Positions 52,597 through 60,420 of a stretch of DNA of 64,000 bases are shown here, one piece after another. Position 1 is the first letter of the stretch. The number at the start of each line of letters is the position of its first letter. Made by a program: the position numbers and the translations under genes. Origin of the DNA: Brevibacillus sp. DP1.3A (GTDB taxonomy: Bacteria; Bacillota; Bacilli; Brevibacillales; Brevibacillaceae). A model generated the notes under the pieces. That model had not been told where the DNA came from, did no database searches, and was given only the letters and a program-made list of their open reading frames with translations. The stretch spans positions 3,827,001-3,891,000 of the forward strand of contig NZ_CP085876.1 of the NCBI RefSeq assembly GCF_013284245.2, in the 5' to 3' direction.

Positions 52597-54201
52597 ATGT
52601 TGCAAAGAGAGTTGACTCGGGAACAAGCGATACAGGTAGGCGAGCAAATCCTAATTGCCGTCGAAGGACACATCATTGAACGGGGCTATACGTACTTTTC
52701 TGATGGCGTCGTCTTCAATACACGCGTAGAACAAGGCCAATATTTGACGAGTGATGTTCAAGGTTCCGAGGTGTATCATGTTCGCCTCGATATGGAAACG
52801 GTTCAAAACAGTACCTGTACCTGCCCTTATTCGCGCATTTGTAAGCATATTGCGGCTACTTTTTTTCAGATGTACAGTGTGTTCGAGAATCCTCGTACAT
52901 TTTTGACCCGCTCCCAACAACCAAGACGAGCTACTTTTTCTCCTCATCTGCTGATTCCTGCTTATAAATATAGCCATACCGCTCTTTCTCAGCAGGATAC
53001 AGCGTCTGTTTCCTCTCCGCTTACCGCGAACAGCTCCGTCAAAGAATGGTGGGCATTTTTTGAGAGCTGGACACGCAACCTGTTTGCGGCCATGGAATCG
53101 TATCGAGCTTCCTCTGAGTTATTATCGAGCTATCAAAATGTGCTGAGTGTTGCTGCCTCGTGGCCGAAGGATCGGGCACAACTCTTTGTCATTCATGCTA
53201 ATCTGTTTCATCTCATGAAGCTTACACAATACGTCAAAACGTACCGCCAATCATACTGGTTCCTGGATTTGGTTCAGACAGCCGAGCGGCTATTGGATCA
53301 ATTAGAAGGGACGTTGTACTTCGCAGATATCCCTGCTCTCTTGACTCACCATCAGGATGCCATCGTAGATACACTTCAACTGACAAAGGAATTGAAAGAA
53401 AACGAAGCCACTTCCCTCTACTGGATATTCGCCTATCAAATGTTGTGGTGGATGCTATTGAAGAAGCCGGAGTGGATGCAAGAGGAGATCCATGTGCTGG
53501 ATCAGCTTATCAACGATGAAAACAGCTCTGCCGCCGAAAAGGAAAAAGGGCTGCTGCTCCGTGCCCACTTTCATGTGATGGAAAAGGAGGACGAAGCTGC
53601 TCTACAAATCTGGAAAAGAATGAGCCGTTTGAACCTCTCCTTCTACTTGTCCTATATGAAATCATTCGCTCGCGATGGAGACTGGCAGCGATTTCTCGAT
53701 TGGACTGCTGCGTTGACGTCCTTAATCGGTCAAGCCGAGACACAGCAATACCGACTCGTTATCTCCATTTGGCAGGAAGCGATGGAGCAAGTGGGACGAT
53801 CAGCCGAGTGCGGCGCCAAGTTGAAGCAGTTCTTACCGAGCAGTTATCACGAATATGCCGCCTATTTATATGAAGAACGACAGTTTCAGCAATGGATTGA
53901 TTTGCAAATGTCGTTTCAAGTGCCCATGGCAGATATTTCGATCGTGCAGGTGAAAGAAATCGAGGAAGCCGAGCCAACTCTGCTCTTCCCTTTTTATTTG
54001 CGTGAGGTGAACAGACTCATTGCGGAACGTAACCGAACGGCCTACAAAGAAGCGATCAAACTCATGAAAAAGGTAAGGACGATTTACAACAGAGCAAACC
54101 AAGATACGCGCTGGGAACGATACGTGGATCAATTATCTGCCAAACATAATCGATTACGTGCTTTTCAAGAAGAGCTAAGGAGAGGAAATTTCAACTTATG
54201 A
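52597..54201 (+). CDS. SWIM zinc-finger protein, partner of the SNF2 helicase
   Basis: A 534-residue protein. The SWIM zinc motif is CTCPYSRICKH (Cys74, Cys76, Cys82, His84). The rest is helical and without recognised catalytic residues. The stop overlaps the SNF2 gene start (ATGA), which indicates tight coupling. The arrangement resembles B. subtilis ywqB-ywqA. SWIM domains bind DNA or proteins. A joint role in DNA transactions is inferred only. Confidence 0.9.
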   Translation: MLQRELTREQAIQVGEQILIAVEGHIIERGYTYFSDGVVFNTRVEQGQYLTSDVQGSEVYHVRLDMETVQNSTCTCPYSRICKHIAATFFQMYSVFENPRTFLTRSQQPRRATFSPHLLIPAYKYSHTALSQQDTASVSSPLTANSSVKEWWAFFESWTRNLFAAMESYRASSELLSSYQNVLSVAASWPKDRAQLFVIHANLFHLMKLTQYVKTYRQSYWFLDLVQTAERLLDQLEGTLYFADIPALLTHHQDAIVDTLQLTKELKENEATSLYWIFAYQMLWWMLLKKPEWMQEEIHVLDQLINDENSSAAEKEKGLLLRAHFHVMEKEDEAALQIWKRMSRLNLSFYLSYMKSFARDGDWQRFLDWTAALTSLIGQAETQQYRLVISIWQEAMEQVGRSAECGAKLKQFLPSSYHEYAAYLYEERQFQQWIDLQMSFQVPMADISIVQVKEIEEAEPTLLFPFYLREVNRLIAERNRTAYKEAIKLMKKVRTIYNRANQDTRWERYVDQLSAKHNRLRAFQEELRRGNFNL

Positions 54202-57056
54202 ATACCGTCACTACATTGGTTCTAGACGGAGAGCTTTTGGCAGACGGACAATTCTTGATTACTGGCAAAGACACGCAAGGAGCAGTGGTCGATCCAGAAG
54301 AATTGGCAGGAACACTGTTTGCGTGGGATGAGTCATCCTATTACGGAACCTTCCTGGACAAAAACGAGCAAGGCGTACTGCTCAGTCCTGCCAAGGCCCT
54401 CTCCTTTTTCGTCTCCCCCCAGTGGCTTTTGCATCGGATCTATTCATCCAGCACGCCATTTGAACAATTTACGCATGTAGCGAAAATGATCCGGGATACG
54501 CTCGCACAAGGCTCTATTGCCCCTGATTTTTCTTCTTGGAAAAAAGGACAAATAGGCTGGAGAGCCCTGCATACTCCCGGCGATTTTCCGGAGTACGGAC
54601 ACAAGTGGCTTTCGCTCGTCGTGGAGGAATCCTCACAAGGCACTGGTGAGATTGGACGAAAGTGGGAGCAGCTATTGACGCAATACCCGGCTCTGTACGT
54701 CATGGGCGCCGAGCTTTCTCCACACCTTCAGGAACAGGAATGGTTGCAATCGATAGGCTGGCTGCCAGATACGACACCGTTTCGCACATGCTTGCAAATC
54801 GTCGAGGCCGAGGAGCATCCCAATGACTGGCAACTCCAAGTGTATTTGCAGAATCGTGAAGAGCCAGATCAGTTATTTCTCATTGAGCCACACCAGTTGA
54901 CGGCTGAGGGAGTAGCCACTGCTCGCATCCCAGCTGACTGGCGTGAGCACTGGAATCGTTTTCTCACGGACCTAGCGAAATGTAAAGAGATTCTCCCGTG
55001 GCAAAAAGACACTCGGGAGAATCAAAGCCGTTTTCTCACCCGATTGACGAACGAGCAAGCATGGATCTTTTTGACGTCGAGCAGTTTGCAGTTGGTGCAA
55101 GCCGGTATTCACGTCTTTCTGCCAGCATGGTGGGAACAAGTACGCCGGGTAAAACCGAAGCTAAAAGCCAAGATTACAACCTCTGTCGGGGCTAGCAGAC
55201 AGTCCTTCCTAGGTGTCTCCCAGCTCATGGATTTTGAATGGAAGCTCGCCTTGGGACCTGTGGAGCTCAGCGAAGAGGAATTTGAGGAACTCATTAAACA
55301 AAAGCAGCGTCTACTGAAAATTCGTGGGCATTGGGTACAATTGACGCCCGATCTATTCTTGCAGCTGCAGGAAGCGCTCAAGAAAAACCAAGCGAAAAAC
55401 GGCATGTCCCTACGTGACGTCATGAGAATGCACATCGCCCCTCCTGTGGAAGTTGAGGAGCTACCCGATGATGAGTTCGATTTCGACACTTCTCTAACGG
55501 TTGAAGTTCAGCTAAACCAACATTTGCGAGAGCTGTTGAATCAATTGCAAGAAACGAAGCGCATCCCGATTATGGAGCAGCCATCTCCTTTTCACGGGAC
55601 GTTGCGAAATTATCAGCTGGAGGGCAGTTCGTGGCTGTTCTTTTTACGCCGCTTTGGGTTGGGAGCTTGTCTGGCCGATGACATGGGATTGGGGAAAACG
55701 GTTCAATTTATTACGTACCTGCTTCATGTCAAACAACATGGCCCAGCCAGTACTCCTTCTCTATTAATCTGTCCGACCTCCGTCATAGGCAACTGGCAAA
55801 AAGAGCTGAAGCGCTTCGCCCCCTCTCTTCAAGTAATGATTCACTATGGCAATGATCGTCAAAAGAAGGAGGCGTTCTTGCCAGCGATCAAAGGAGCAGA
55901 TCTCGTGATTACCTCCTATGCCCTGTCGCATTTGGATGAGCAGGAGCTAGGAATGGTTACATGGGATACGATTTGTCTCGACGAGGCGCAAAATATTAAA
56001 AACGCCTATACAAAGCAAGCATCTGCTGTGCGCGATTTGAAAGCATGGCACCGGATCGCTCTTACAGGCACTCCGATCGAAAATCGTCTGAGTGAGCTCT
56101 GGTCCATTTTTGATTTCTTGAATCCTGGCTACCTGGGAAGTCTCGGGGAATTTACCCAGCGTTTTGTCCATCCCATCGAACGCGACCAAGACCAGCACCT
56201 CATCAATCAGGTGCAACGACTCATTCAGCCTTTCCTGCTCCGTCGCGTGAAAACCGATCCGAACATTCAGCTCGACTTGCCAGACAAGAATGAGAGCAAG
56301 GAATATGTACCGCTGACTACCGAGCAAGGCGCACTTTATGAGACAGCGATTCAAGATATGTTTGATCGAATGGAAAAAGCCTCTCCTATGGAGCGGCGCG
56401 GTCTGATTCTGACGACATTGACACGTCTCAAACAATTGTGTGACCACCCTGCCCTCATTTTGAATGAAATCTCAACAGCAGATGAAGCCAGTCGCTCGCA
56501 CAAATTGGAAAGGCTGCTGGAATTGGTGGAGGATATTCGCCAAAAGAAAGAGCGTTGTCTGATATTTACCCAATACATCGAAATGGGCAATTTGCTCCAA
56601 CGGGTGCTGACGCGAGAAGGCTATGGACCTGTCTACTTCCTAAATGGGTCCACGAAGAAAGAAAAACGCGATGAGATGATCGCTCGTTTTCAAGACTCTA
56701 CACTTCCAGATCATGAACGCGGGGCCGTCTTCATTCTTTCCTTGCGCGCGGGTGGAACCGGCTTGAACTTGACGGAAGCCAACCACGTCATTCACGTAGA
56801 TCGCTGGTGGAATCCTGCGGTAGAAAATCAGGCCACTGACCGTGCTCATCGCATAGGACAGCAGCGCAATGTTCACGTCTACAAATTCATCTCGCTCGGG
56901 ACAATTGAGGAACGCATTGATGAAATGATGGAGAGAAAGCTATCGTTGAGCCAGCAAATTGTCGGGACGGGCGAAAGCTGGATCACCGAGCTATCTACGG
57001 AAGAGCTGCGGGACTTGTTCACCCTGCGCCATGATTGGCTAGACACGAAAGGATAG
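54198..57056 (+). CDS. SNF2-family ATP-dependent DNA helicase/translocase
   Basis: A 952-residue SNF2 protein. The N-terminal ~440 residues are an SNF2-associated bacterial region; the ATPase core has YQLEGSSWLFFLRRFGLGAC, Walker A DDMGLGKTVQ, the DEAQ box ICLDEAQNIKN, TGTPIENRLSELWSIFDFLN and motif VI QATDRAHRIGQQRNVHVYKFI, each in part. Length and architecture match the bacterial YwqA-like group. ATG overlaps the SWIM gene stop. SNF2 enzymes translocate along DNA and remodel nucleoprotein; a repair or nucleoid role is likely but not shown. Confidence 0.92.
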   Translation: MNTVTTLVLDGELLADGQFLITGKDTQGAVVDPEELAGTLFAWDESSYYGTFLDKNEQGVLLSPAKALSFFVSPQWLLHRIYSSSTPFEQFTHVAKMIRDTLAQGSIAPDFSSWKKGQIGWRALHTPGDFPEYGHKWLSLVVEESSQGTGEIGRKWEQLLTQYPALYVMGAELSPHLQEQEWLQSIGWLPDTTPFRTCLQIVEAEEHPNDWQLQVYLQNREEPDQLFLIEPHQLTAEGVATARIPADWREHWNRFLTDLAKCKEILPWQKDTRENQSRFLTRLTNEQAWIFLTSSSLQLVQAGIHVFLPAWWEQVRRVKPKLKAKITTSVGASRQSFLGVSQLMDFEWKLALGPVELSEEEFEELIKQKQRLLKIRGHWVQLTPDLFLQLQEALKKNQAKNGMSLRDVMRMHIAPPVEVEELPDDEFDFDTSLTVEVQLNQHLRELLNQLQETKRIPIMEQPSPFHGTLRNYQLEGSSWLFFLRRFGLGACLADDMGLGKTVQFITYLLHVKQHGPASTPSLLICPTSVIGNWQKELKRFAPSLQVMIHYGNDRQKKEAFLPAIKGADLVITSYALSHLDEQELGMVTWDTICLDEAQNIKNAYTKQASAVRDLKAWHRIALTGTPIENRLSELWSIFDFLNPGYLGSLGEFTQRFVHPIERDQDQHLINQVQRLIQPFLLRRVKTDPNIQLDLPDKNESKEYVPLTTEQGALYETAIQDMFDRMEKASPMERRGLILTTLTRLKQLCDHPALILNEISTADEASRSHKLERLLELVEDIRQKKERCLIFTQYIEMGNLLQRVLTREGYGPVYFLNGSTKKEKRDEMIARFQDSTLPDHERGAVFILSLRAGGTGLNLTEANHVIHVDRWWNPAVENQATDRAHRIGQQRNVHVYKFISLGTIEERIDEMMERKLSLSQQIVGTGESWITELSTEELRDLFTLRHDWLDTKG

Positions 57057-57207: not shown

Positions 57208-57256
57208 AAAACCCAAGGCCTGATCACGTTATGGATCTAGCCTTGGGTTTGATTTT
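57208..57256. terminator. Bidirectional terminator after the SNF2 operon
   Basis: Arms AAACCCAAGGC and GCCTTGGGTTT with a 20-base loop; T-rich on both outer sides. It overlaps the end of the convergent kinase gene. Confidence 0.75.
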
Positions 57257-59493
57257 TCTAGTGGAAAGGAAACCTCCACTGTCGTCCCTTTATTCGGGGT
57301 ACTCGAAAAATGGATATACCCATCGTGTGCTTGAATGATTTTATAACAAATCATGAGTCCTAGCCCGGTCCCCTTCTCTTTCGTGCTATAAAAAGGCTCC
57401 CCTAATCGTTTCAACCGTTCTTCCGCCATACCGCAGCCTTGATCAATGATTCTTATCATCACTTGCTCGTTTTCTTTACGCCAAGCCACGATTTGAATCG
57501 TCCCACCATCTTGCATCGAGTCAACAGCGTTTGACAGAAGATTCATGAAAAGCTGCTGAATTTGATTCTGATCGCACAAAATCGTGGTCCCTTCCACTTC
57601 CTTGACATCCAGCACCAGATGATGACGCTCTAGCTTTACTTGCATCAATCGAGTAACCTCTCGCAGCAAATTCACTAGATTTTTTGGTTCGCACGGTTCT
57701 GTGCATTCTCTTGATAGAAAGACGTATTCTCGCAGGACACTCTCTAATTGATGAAATTCAGCCTGCATAATATCAAAGTATTCCCTCTTCCATTGGTCTC
57801 GACGGAGCAATTGTACGAAGCCTTTGATGGAAGTTACCGGGTTTCGTATTTCGTGCGCAACCCCGGCCGCCATTTGCCCAATGACGGATAGCTTGTCTAT
57901 CTTTTGTAAAAACTCTTCTGTTTTCACGTGCTTCGTGTGATTTCGAATGATAAATATGACTTGATTCGGCTCATGTTCTTCATGAATCACCGGGGTGCCT
58001 TTTGCCTCCAGCGTGATCTTTTTGCCATTCCGGTCCGGGCAAGTAAATGTAATGAGACGAGGCTGCTTCTCCACCGTGATCTGACGAATCGTTTGCATAA
58101 CAAGCCTACCCGTTTCCAGGGGCAGGACAGCTAGTAGGTGACGATTCACAACTTCATCAGGAGCGATCTCCAGAACGGATTGAACGGATGGTGAAATATA
58201 CGTAATGATCCCCTGACTATTGATGATCACGATAATATCAGACAAGTTTTCTGCAATCAATCGATAGGGCGATTCGCTCACACGTTCTGCTTCTTGTGCT
58301 TTTTTCAGCTCAGTAATGTCGACACAAGAAGCAATGACTTCTTTCACACGACCATCGGAAAAGATCGGACGAAAAGCAGCCAGATAGCGAATCCCATTGA
58401 CACTGCCTTCGTAAAACACGTTTTGCTCCCCGCTCCACGCTCGCTCATACGATTCCATTTTGCGTGGAATCTCTTCAGCCGGGATCATATTCAGCAAATC
58501 TTGTCCAATCACTTGTTCCGGTGTCATCCCCATGCGAAAAAGCATCTCTCCTTCGCACAGCGTATGAATGAATGCATCTCCCTGTTTCCGAAAAGCAAAT
58601 GTCATTCCTTGTTGCTTGCGAAGAACGTCCCCTCGCTCACTCTGATCCACTTCGTATGTATCAAAAGCTCGGTGCTGTTCACCATTGAGTAGTAAAAATG
58701 CACTGTTCCTAAACCTTTCCTCACGCTTCAACACACGAGCAAAATCATCGGCAGGCATGGGCTCACTAAACCAAAATCCTTGAGCAGAATCACAACCAAG
58801 CTGCCAAAGAAAATCCAATTGCTCTTGCGTCTCTACACCTTCTGCCGTTACTTGCACGCCCAGACTTCGTGCCATCGCCATGACGGTTTTGATGACGGTC
58901 GCCTGTGTGACATCGCTCATGCATTCCCTTACACAGGATTGATCGATTTTTAGTTTGTTCATAGCAAAGCGGGATAGATGTTGAATGCTGCTATAGCCCT
59001 TCCCAAAATCATCCAAGCTGATTTTTACCCCGATTCTTTTTAGTTCTGCTAAAATCTCGATGGTACGTTCCCCATCTCTGGCAGAATCCTCGGTAAATTC
59101 CAGCTCCAAATAGTGAGGCTGCAGGTTCGTTTCGTCTAAGATCGCTTGAATCCTGCTACCCAACTGGTCCGATTCCAAGGTATAGGATGACAGATTCACG
59201 CATGTCACAAGAGGTAGTAGTCCGGCGTCCTGCCAAGCTTTGTTCTGCTTGCAAGCCGTTCTGATCACCCATTCCTCTACCAAAAGAATCAAACCACTCA
59301 TTTCTGCTAACAAAAATATCCAATCCGGGGGCAGTAGCCCTCTTTGCTGATGGTTCCATCTTACCAGAGCTTCTGCTCCGATTATTTTGCCTGTTCTCAG
59401 GTCGTAGAGTGGTTGATAATACAGGCTAAGCTGTTGATTGACAACCGCTTGATGAAAATCTCGAACGTAGCGATCCAGTTCCTTTTGGTTCAT
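57229..59493 (-). CDS. Hybrid EAL - PAS - PAS - histidine kinase
   Basis: About 754 residues. An N-terminal EAL c-di-GMP phosphodiesterase domain (about 10-250) with AEALVRW, a CVNLS element, LELEFTE, SLDDFGKGYSS, LKID and TAEGVE, so catalytic ligands seem intact although the usual T/A of the DDFG-TGYSS loop is Lys. Two PAS domains follow (about 290-400 and 410-525), then HisKA with AAGVAHEIRNPVTSIKGFVQLL-type H-box (as in Spo0F kinases) and a HATPase with NAVDSM, DQGCGM and GTGLGL. No membrane segment, so cytoplasmic. Start is ATG 59493; an in-frame GTG at 59511 also exists. No response regulator adjoins. Confidence 0.93.
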   Translation of the reverse strand: MNQKELDRYVRDFHQAVVNQQLSLYYQPLYDLRTGKIIGAEALVRWNHQQRGLLPPDWIFLLAEMSGLILLVEEWVIRTACKQNKAWQDAGLLPLVTCVNLSSYTLESDQLGSRIQAILDETNLQPHYLELEFTEDSARDGERTIEILAELKRIGVKISLDDFGKGYSSIQHLSRFAMNKLKIDQSCVRECMSDVTQATVIKTVMAMARSLGVQVTAEGVETQEQLDFLWQLGCDSAQGFWFSEPMPADDFARVLKREERFRNSAFLLLNGEQHRAFDTYEVDQSERGDVLRKQQGMTFAFRKQGDAFIHTLCEGEMLFRMGMTPEQVIGQDLLNMIPAEEIPRKMESYERAWSGEQNVFYEGSVNGIRYLAAFRPIFSDGRVKEVIASCVDITELKKAQEAERVSESPYRLIAENLSDIIVIINSQGIITYISPSVQSVLEIAPDEVVNRHLLAVLPLETGRLVMQTIRQITVEKQPRLITFTCPDRNGKKITLEAKGTPVIHEEHEPNQVIFIIRNHTKHVKTEEFLQKIDKLSVIGQMAAGVAHEIRNPVTSIKGFVQLLRRDQWKREYFDIMQAEFHQLESVLREYVFLSRECTEPCEPKNLVNLLREVTRLMQVKLERHHLVLDVKEVEGTTILCDQNQIQQLFMNLLSNAVDSMQDGGTIQIVAWRKENEQVMIRIIDQGCGMAEERLKRLGEPFYSTKEKGTGLGLMICYKIIQAHDGYIHFSSTPNKGTTVEVSFPLEKSNPRLDP

Positions 59494-59604
59494 TGTCTGT
59501 ATACGAACCACGCCTTCCTGGAAATCATTCTGATTTTTCCAACTTTACCCCTGACTCTACTTTATAGGAAGAGGCTAGCACATGTCCATACGTCTACAGT
59601 GTAT

Positions 59605-59631
59605 AGAAAAAACCCTCCACAAAGGGAGGGT
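59605..59631 (-). terminator. Terminator of the exporter-FhuF operon
   Basis: ACCCTCCC and GGAGGGT around a 5-base loop, followed by a T6 run on the minus strand. Starts 4 bp after the fhuF-like stop. Confidence 0.85.
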
Positions 59632-59634
59632 CAG

Positions 59635-60420
59635 CTACGCGCGAATTCTCATCAGAGCGCGCTCTTCTTCTTTTATCCGCGGACAGGTATAGCAATACTT
59701 TTGCTCCCCCGTCTTATAGTACAAACAGCATTGATTCTTGATGCTCACTTTCGCTTGGGGATCACGCATATCCTCGATCCAGCGCACTTTGACACGAAAT
59801 GGATTTTTTTGCAATCCAAAGCTCTCGCCTTCCAGCTGATTACAGAGGACATCGTAATCAGCCTTCACTTGTTGCTTGATGCTATCCTGTTCTACCAACG
59901 CCACAAAAGCATCCGTATAGTAATTGAACTTGGTCGGGAACTGTCCCCAGAGCATCGCTTCGGGGTTTTCTGTTACCTTTGCAAGAGTCGTGAGCAATGG
60001 GTGCAGGAAGTCTTGGAAATACGCACGATAGCATTCCTTCAGCCAGATTGCGCGCTCTGCTTCGCTGGTAGGCGCTTCTACGATCTCATACGCTGGGATC
60101 ACAAAGACGAATTGCGGGTAATCATCCTCGTAAAACAATTCTATCGTCATATTATCCAGCGTCATGGTTAGTGCACGGTTCCAGACAGAAATCATGTACG
60201 AAAGACCGAGAGAAGGGCTCGTGAGCCAACTGCTGATGTAAGTACCAGCAGCAGTCAGCTCATGTGCCTTGATTAGCGGAGCATAGATTTGTACGAGCTC
60301 ATTCATATGTGTCGGGTCTACCAAATCTCTTGCCTTCATCGAAAATAAGGCATTGGGTCTCGGTTTTGAAGAAATATCAAACCGTTGTGCGATAAAATCG
60401 TCATCCCATTCTTGCATCAC
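59635..60420 (-). CDS. FhuF-like siderophore-iron reductase, 2Fe-2S
   Basis: A 261-residue protein of the FhuF/IucA-C-terminal-type group. The C-terminus has the signature CC-x10-C-x2-C (QCCLYYKTGEQKYCYTCPRI), which coordinates a [2Fe-2S] cluster in FhuF. Family members reduce ferric siderophore in the cytoplasm to release iron. GTG 60420 or ATG 60417 start with AGAGGTG upstream. It is 22 bp after the ABC exporter gene, both behind a Fur box. Confidence 0.88.
   Translation of the reverse strand: MMQEWDDDFIAQRFDISSKPRPNALFSMKARDLVDPTHMNELVQIYAPLIKAHELTAAGTYISSWLTSPSLGLSYMISVWNRALTMTLDNMTIELFYEDDYPQFVFVIPAYEIVEAPTSEAERAIWLKECYRAYFQDFLHPLLTTLAKVTENPEAMLWGQFPTKFNYYTDAFVALVEQDSIKQQVKADYDVLCNQLEGESFGLQKNPFRVKVRWIEDMRDPQAKVSIKNQCCLYYKTGEQKYCYTCPRIKEEERALMRIRA

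Follow-up and report, generated by a model that had tools for sequence, protein, structure and literature searches.

To our knowledge, none of the Bacillus subtilis sporulation kinases KinA to KinE carries an EAL domain. In the Pseudomonas proteins MucR and MorA, the EAL domain is found after a GGDEF domain. According to passages of Davidson (2018, PMC6136694), sporulation kinases are orphans, often with PAS domains, and in Table 1 of that paper their specificity residues are given as TAGFQL (KinA), TVGFQL (KinB), TSGFQI (KinC), TGGFQL (KinD) and TAGFQL (KinE), residues that are described there as partly degenerate. With regard to c-di-GMP, excerpts of PMC8653836 report that it inhibits early sporulation in C. 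difficile and, in the discussion, that deleting active GGDEF/EAL/HD-GYP genes one at a time left sporulation unchanged in two Bacillus species. No description of an EAL-fused sporulation kinase was found among the titles and abstract openings listed in a literature search limited to open-licence papers, and the EAL-PAS-kinase architecture was absent from passages of PMC8653836, PMC8846402, PMC9239204 and PMC12826061.

The window investigated here, a 64,000-nucleotide stretch of the genome of the soil bacterium Brevibacillus sp. DP1.3A (NZ_CP085876.1, positions 3,827,001 to 3,891,000), encodes a protein that combines features of both kinds of system. It resembles KinA, KinC and KinE in being encoded by an orphan gene, in having PAS domains before HisKA-HATPase and in possessing specificity residues within one change of theirs, but differs from them by its N-terminal EAL domain. 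The EAL fold is like that of MucR and MorA (5m1t, 4rni) at 40–42 % identity and has the catalytic residues of MorA; whereas the EAL domain follows GGDEF in MorA, here it opens the protein, which ends in a histidine kinase. Fusions from Neobacillus, Peribacillus, Alkalihalobacillus and Bacillus likewise combine EAL, PAS and a kinase in a single frame, some of them with an additional GGDEF or with further PAS domains.

Gene, domain organization and locus

The sequence-only reading had placed a gene for EAL, two PAS, HisKA and HATPase domains at 57229–59493. These coordinates were correct, with the gene on the minus strand and its reading frame intact in the window, and the combination of domains in a single protein was confirmed by Pfam matches that were each above the curated cut-off of the family: EAL (E 1.6e-65, 221.2 bits compared with a cut-off of 31.3), PAS, with a second PAS_4/PAS_9 stretch in addition, HisKA (5.4e-13) and HATPase_c (2.2e-28). 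The same organization, from EAL through two PAS-like parts to DHp helices and CA, was seen in an AlphaFold model from 24 sequences (mean pLDDT 78, pTM 0.40, at which domain packing is unreliable). Residues H547, N655, D684, G686, G688, G708, G710 and G712 were invariant in 24 aligned sequences; we take these to represent the H-box His, the N-box Asn and the G boxes. The sequence fits a soluble protein. The predicted start codon is ATG 59493, or perhaps GTG 59511, which would give a 760 aa product; in the eight of 15 orthologues that could be aligned through a shared VVRIQ start region, the GTG was present in all eight and the ATG in seven.

Table 1. Features of the EAL-PAS kinase locus and candidate phosphorelay genes (positions in the window unless prefixed C1)
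Feature	Position	Strand	Details
SNF2-type helicase gene, convergent, downstream	54198..57056	+	Named by eye; in 14/14 other orthologous loci
EAL-PAS-PAS-HisKA-HATPase_c orphan sensor kinase gene	57229..59493	-	754 aa from ATG
HATPase_c, residues 636–747	57253..57588	-	Pfam 641–746
DHp/HisKA, residues 533–600	57694..57897	-	H-box His547; TSGFQL; Pfam HisKA 539–595
PAS2, residues 407–525	57919..58275	-	Pfam PAS 410–520; model PAS-like elements 420–518
PAS1, residues 294–400	58294..58614	-	Alignment; PAS-like elements 297–392 in AlphaFold model
EAL domain, residues 11–245	58759..59463	-	Pfam PF00563; catalytic set complete
Promoter-like TGGACA...TATAAAGT, upstream of kinase gene	59559..59588	-	
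Terminator-like stem-loop between FhuF-like gene and EAL-PAS kinase gene	59611..59632	-	
FhuF-like gene, upstream	59635..60420	-	Named by eye; matched in 9/14 other orthologous loci
Spo0F candidate, 124 aa	C1:570122-570496		Just before aldolase-like gene; size, neighbour, QGILEVD by eye
Spo0B candidate, 197 aa	C1:4717201-4717794		Between L27 and Obg; SPOB_a match 73.7 bits

In addition to the neighbours listed in Table 1, the gene beside the SNF2-type gene (52597–54201) was found in 14/14 other orthologous loci, and an ABC transporter gene upstream (named by eye) in 13 of the 14. The EAL-PAS kinase gene is probably monocistronic. The TGGACA element was present in 8/8 aligned upstream regions and TATAAA in 7/8, whilst a scan of the single genome gave four promoter-like sites compared with 4.3 in shuffles, i.e. 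no excess. Six terminator-like sites were found in the region compared with 3.2 expected from shuffles, a difference that is weak when taken alone.

Specificity residues and the putative phosphorelay target

The six specificity places in the DHp domain, located by their distance from the H-box His in the way that fits the KinA and KinD sequences, read TSGFQL in 15/15 Brevibacillus orthologues, one change from KinA, KinC and KinD. Residues of the class T-[ASVTG]-G-F-Q-[LIMFY] were found in 10 of the 59 HisKA kinases of the genome, counting as not matching six of the 59 that had no recognisable H-box pattern; for the last place, L, I, M and F come from the table in PMC6136694, and Y is our own widening, which admits one of the 10 kinases. 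All 10 kinases of this class lacked a receiver on their own strand within 2.7 kb, a limit chosen after the distances were known, compared with four of the 49 others (Fisher p 1.6e-8). By plain distance, three of the 10 had a receiver near, on the opposite strand at 1.7 and 2.9 kb and on the same strand at 4.1 kb.

The nearest receivers to the EAL-PAS kinase gene were 14.2 kb away on the same strand and 546 kb away on the other strand. A cognate response regulator with unrelated output had been named in the sequence-only reading as a finding that would speak against Spo0F; none was present on the strand of the gene within 14 kb. A partner regulator next door was also rejected, as the nearest same-strand receiver (G000:C1:3898913) adjoins its own kinase at 3897715. 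Three characters of sporulation kinases set out in PMC6136694 were found together in this gene, namely a location away from other two-component genes, an N-terminal PAS domain and KinA–E-like specificity residues.

The genome contains candidates for each of the phosphorelay proteins Spo0F, Spo0B and Spo0A. There was one Spo0A_C match, and the Spo0F and Spo0B candidates are given in Table 1, their L27, Obg and aldolase-like neighbours being named by eye. When NCBIfam was used for naming, the 25 families listed for the Spo0F candidate were each below their cut-off, and no family was obtained at 1e-10 for the Spo0B candidate. The Spo0F candidate (L148:2123-2497) has KLF near the conserved lysine; KPF is found there in B. 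subtilis Spo0F.

The link to Spo0F had originally been drawn from the H-box. Taken alone this is weak evidence, as the NCBIfam models AtoS and ZraS matched the kinase strongly beside KinD; the link itself gained support from the orphan gene, the PAS domains, the TSGFQL residues and the presence of Spo0A and of Spo0F and Spo0B candidates. A kinase predicted to feed Spo0F is the best reading of these data.

Catalytic residues and constraint in the EAL domain

The closest solved structures to the EAL part were the EAL domains of MucR and MorA. Residues E41, N100, E132, D161, D162, K182, E218 and Q238 were all present in the alignment with MorA, as was E135; we take these positions to be catalytic (metal- or substrate-binding, or the loop-6 glutamate), an assignment checked by the MorA alignment. 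The description of the catalytic residues as ‘mostly present’ in the sequence-only reading was therefore an understatement, all eight checked residues being there. The lysine that it had picked out in DDFGKGYSS is real (K165), but as the 24 fusions compared have T, K, R or L at this site, it is not diagnostic and was dropped as a functional oddity.

The catalytic set was complete in 18 of the 24 fusions (10/15 from Brevibacillus and 8/9 from Bacillaceae) and in 6/6 copies of the brevis group. It was broken in L010, L011, L015, L016, L017 and L167, of which L017 also had an in-frame TGA inside EAL, possibly a sequencing error. As the broken copies occupied three places on the kinase tree (L010-L011, L015-L016-L017 and L167), parsimony indicates that the catalytic residues were likely lost at least three separate times. 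The kinase was kept in these five Brevibacillus orthologues and one Bacillaceae fusion, which indicates that the conserved function can do without hydrolysis. Phosphodiesterase activity is thus plausible for the window copy but would not be essential to the EAL-PAS-kinase family.

The most conserved parts of the protein are the kinase core and PAS1: mean identity among nine full-length orthologues was 78 % for DHp, 69 % for CA, 67 % for PAS1, 52 % for PAS2, 46 % for EAL and 21 % for the linker. Within the brevis group, four pairs of close relatives gave dN/dS values of ~0.08–0.14 for the EAL domain, indicative of purifying selection. For the broken-EAL pairs, values of ~0.16 (L010-L011) and ~0.31 (L015-L016) were obtained, both rough as dS was above 1; the value for another pair, L012-L013, was not computable.

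Distribution of the fusion

Surveying genomes for the architecture, as had been proposed from the sequence alone, revealed orthologues in 15 of 26 Brevibacillus genomes (match at 1e-80, 47–95 % identity) and other fusions in Neobacillus, Peribacillus, Alkalihalobacillus and Bacillus. A chance open frame was refuted by these orthologues, together with synteny and low dN/dS. Ten of the 15 orthologues had the full architecture, one of them with an in-frame stop. The other five (L019–L023), close relatives that are 90–95 % identical, lacked PAS1 at the same in-frame place. Gain of PAS1 by the window strain was rejected, since PAS1 was present in nine other Brevibacillus orthologues, which makes its loss by the five relatives the simpler history; support in the brevis-group flank and gene trees was too low for this loss to be placed.

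No match at 1e-80 was obtained in the remaining 11 of the 26 genomes, indicating that the gene is dispensable. Six of these 11 genomes were inspected. In G006, G014 and G019 (brevis-group loci L238, L239 and L240) the gene was deleted and its neighbours were kept, the match reaching only 28, 50 and 92 bases, respectively, into the 3′ end of the gene, so that the end points of the deletions differ. In G024, G008 and G020 the transporter match was a 71–72 % identical copy elsewhere and was uninformative on deletion.

A contig scan, from which 80 loci were kept of 426 relatives, revealed at least nine further EAL-PAS-kinase fusions outside Brevibacillus, in Neobacillus (four), Peribacillus kribbensis (two), Bacillus sp. 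V3B, Bacillus sp. EB600 and Alkalihalobacillus deserti; the specificity residues of these fusions are partly circular, as one scan pattern was NPVTSIKG. Two fusions (L158 and L174) add GGDEF and three (L165, L166 and L168) add further PAS domains. In addition, a sample of 398 Bacilli genomes was queried by whole-protein similarity with a cut-off of 1e-90, at which weaker fusions are missed and the counts are lower bounds. This resulted in 34 matches, of which 14 were Brevibacillus proteins with the fusion (one interrupted) and six were non-Brevibacillus proteins with EAL and kinase in one frame, five with T-x-G-F-Q-L and one with TSEFQL. Two matches were EAL-PAS-PAS proteins without a kinase (L247, ending in GGDEF, and L248), one (L246) had a sequence that was incomplete at its end and was unclassified, and of the remaining 11, the six that were read had no EAL in frame and the other five were left out, as were second matches in G216 and G304.

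The fusions share a 34-row group of the kinase tree (support 88/90), which also holds 10 rows without EAL. The tree is compatible with one origin of the fusion followed by losses, a history that it allows but does not establish. An arrangement resembling a split fusion occurs in Paenibacillus ferrarius and P. alba (L178:1909-5657 and L182:1909-5657): no more than ~30 bases after a kinase gene comes a second, separate gene, the end of which looks like EAL by eye.

Possible function of the EAL-PAS kinase

The reading that we put forward, with belief and doubt in roughly equal measure, is that of an accessory cytoplasmic orphan Kin-type sensor kinase feeding Spo0F, with the EAL domain as an input handling c-di-GMP. 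His547 would probably be autophosphorylated and its phosphate probably passed to Spo0F. The N-terminal EAL domain would bind, and probably hydrolyse, c-di-GMP, and together with PAS1 and PAS2 would form the input that sets kinase output, the state of EAL changing kinase activity, whilst the kinase would be the conserved output. This reading is helped by the inhibition of early sporulation by c-di-GMP in C. difficile and by the other EAL and GGDEF matches of the genome, and weakened by the dispensability of the gene and by the unchanged sporulation in the two Bacillus species. The coupling of c-di-GMP to sporulation or another phosphorelay in the sequence-only reading stays conjectural: the EAL domain looks catalytic here, but the residues are lost in a third of the Brevibacillus orthologues (5/15).

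Alternatively, the protein may have two outputs, with EAL as a regulated phosphodiesterase in its own right and the kinase feeding Spo0F; the PAS domains would control the two, and c-di-GMP would fall when sporulation starts. We consider this unlikely. In its favour, the window copy and three-quarters of the fusions (18/24) have all the catalytic residues, EAL appears to be under purifying selection within the brevis group, the closest structures to EAL are the phosphodiesterases MucR and MorA, and there are EAL-PAS-PAS relatives without kinase, one with GGDEF (L247) and one without (L248); against it, the catalytic residues are broken in three places on the kinase tree where the kinase is kept, and EAL lies ahead of the PAS domains, which is the usual place of an input. 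EAL might instead be a leftover, i.e. a decaying domain with no signalling role on a Spo0F kinase, in favour of which are the recurrent loss of catalytic residues, the in-frame stop that one genome has within EAL and a mean identity of 46 % compared with 78 % for DHp. This explanation appears improbable, given the low EAL dN/dS (~0.08–0.14, four pairs) and the catalytic set complete in 6/6 in the window’s own group, the dN/dS of ~0.16 even in the broken pair L010-L011 (rough, dS above 1) and the retention of the catalytic set in 8/9 Bacillaceae fusions.

Delivery of phosphate to a receiver other than Spo0F, such as a stand-alone CheY-like protein or a distant regulator, seems very unlikely. 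In favour of such a target are the 92 receiver matches in the genome, several of which stand alone, and the partial degeneracy of specificity residues described in PMC6136694; however, TSGFQL is one change from three of the sporulation kinases (KinA, KinC and KinD), there is no same-strand receiver within 14 kb, and the kinases of this residue class all lack a nearby receiver on their own strand.

For the family as a whole, we tentatively propose, with more doubt than confidence, that EAL-PAS kinases wire c-di-GMP directly into the Spo0 phosphorelay in several genera of Bacilli, and that EAL, at first an active phosphodiesterase, has on several occasions become a non-catalytic regulator or disappeared. 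If true, the family would exemplify the conversion of an enzyme into a sensor within a sporulation kinase. By uniting a c-di-GMP domain with a Spo0F-type kinase, the protein would constitute a physical link of two signalling systems that can be tested with a single protein and a single point mutant, and the natural variants at one conserved locus (without PAS1, with a broken EAL or with the gene gone) provide a ready comparison set.

Other genes of the genome

The genome also contained 10 EAL and 15 GGDEF matches over the cut-off. Another orphan TSGFQL kinase was found at L117:1516-2736 (G000:C1, about 5.300–5.304 Mb), with a GGDEF gene (L117:3085-4497, GAF part by eye) 348 bases downstream on the same strand; this pair is a possible second c-di-GMP/Spo0 neighbourhood. 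At L144 (G000:C1:6093940-6095113), two similar stand-alone CheY-like genes were located close together, beside a gene that resembled a sugar-nucleotide epimerase by eye.
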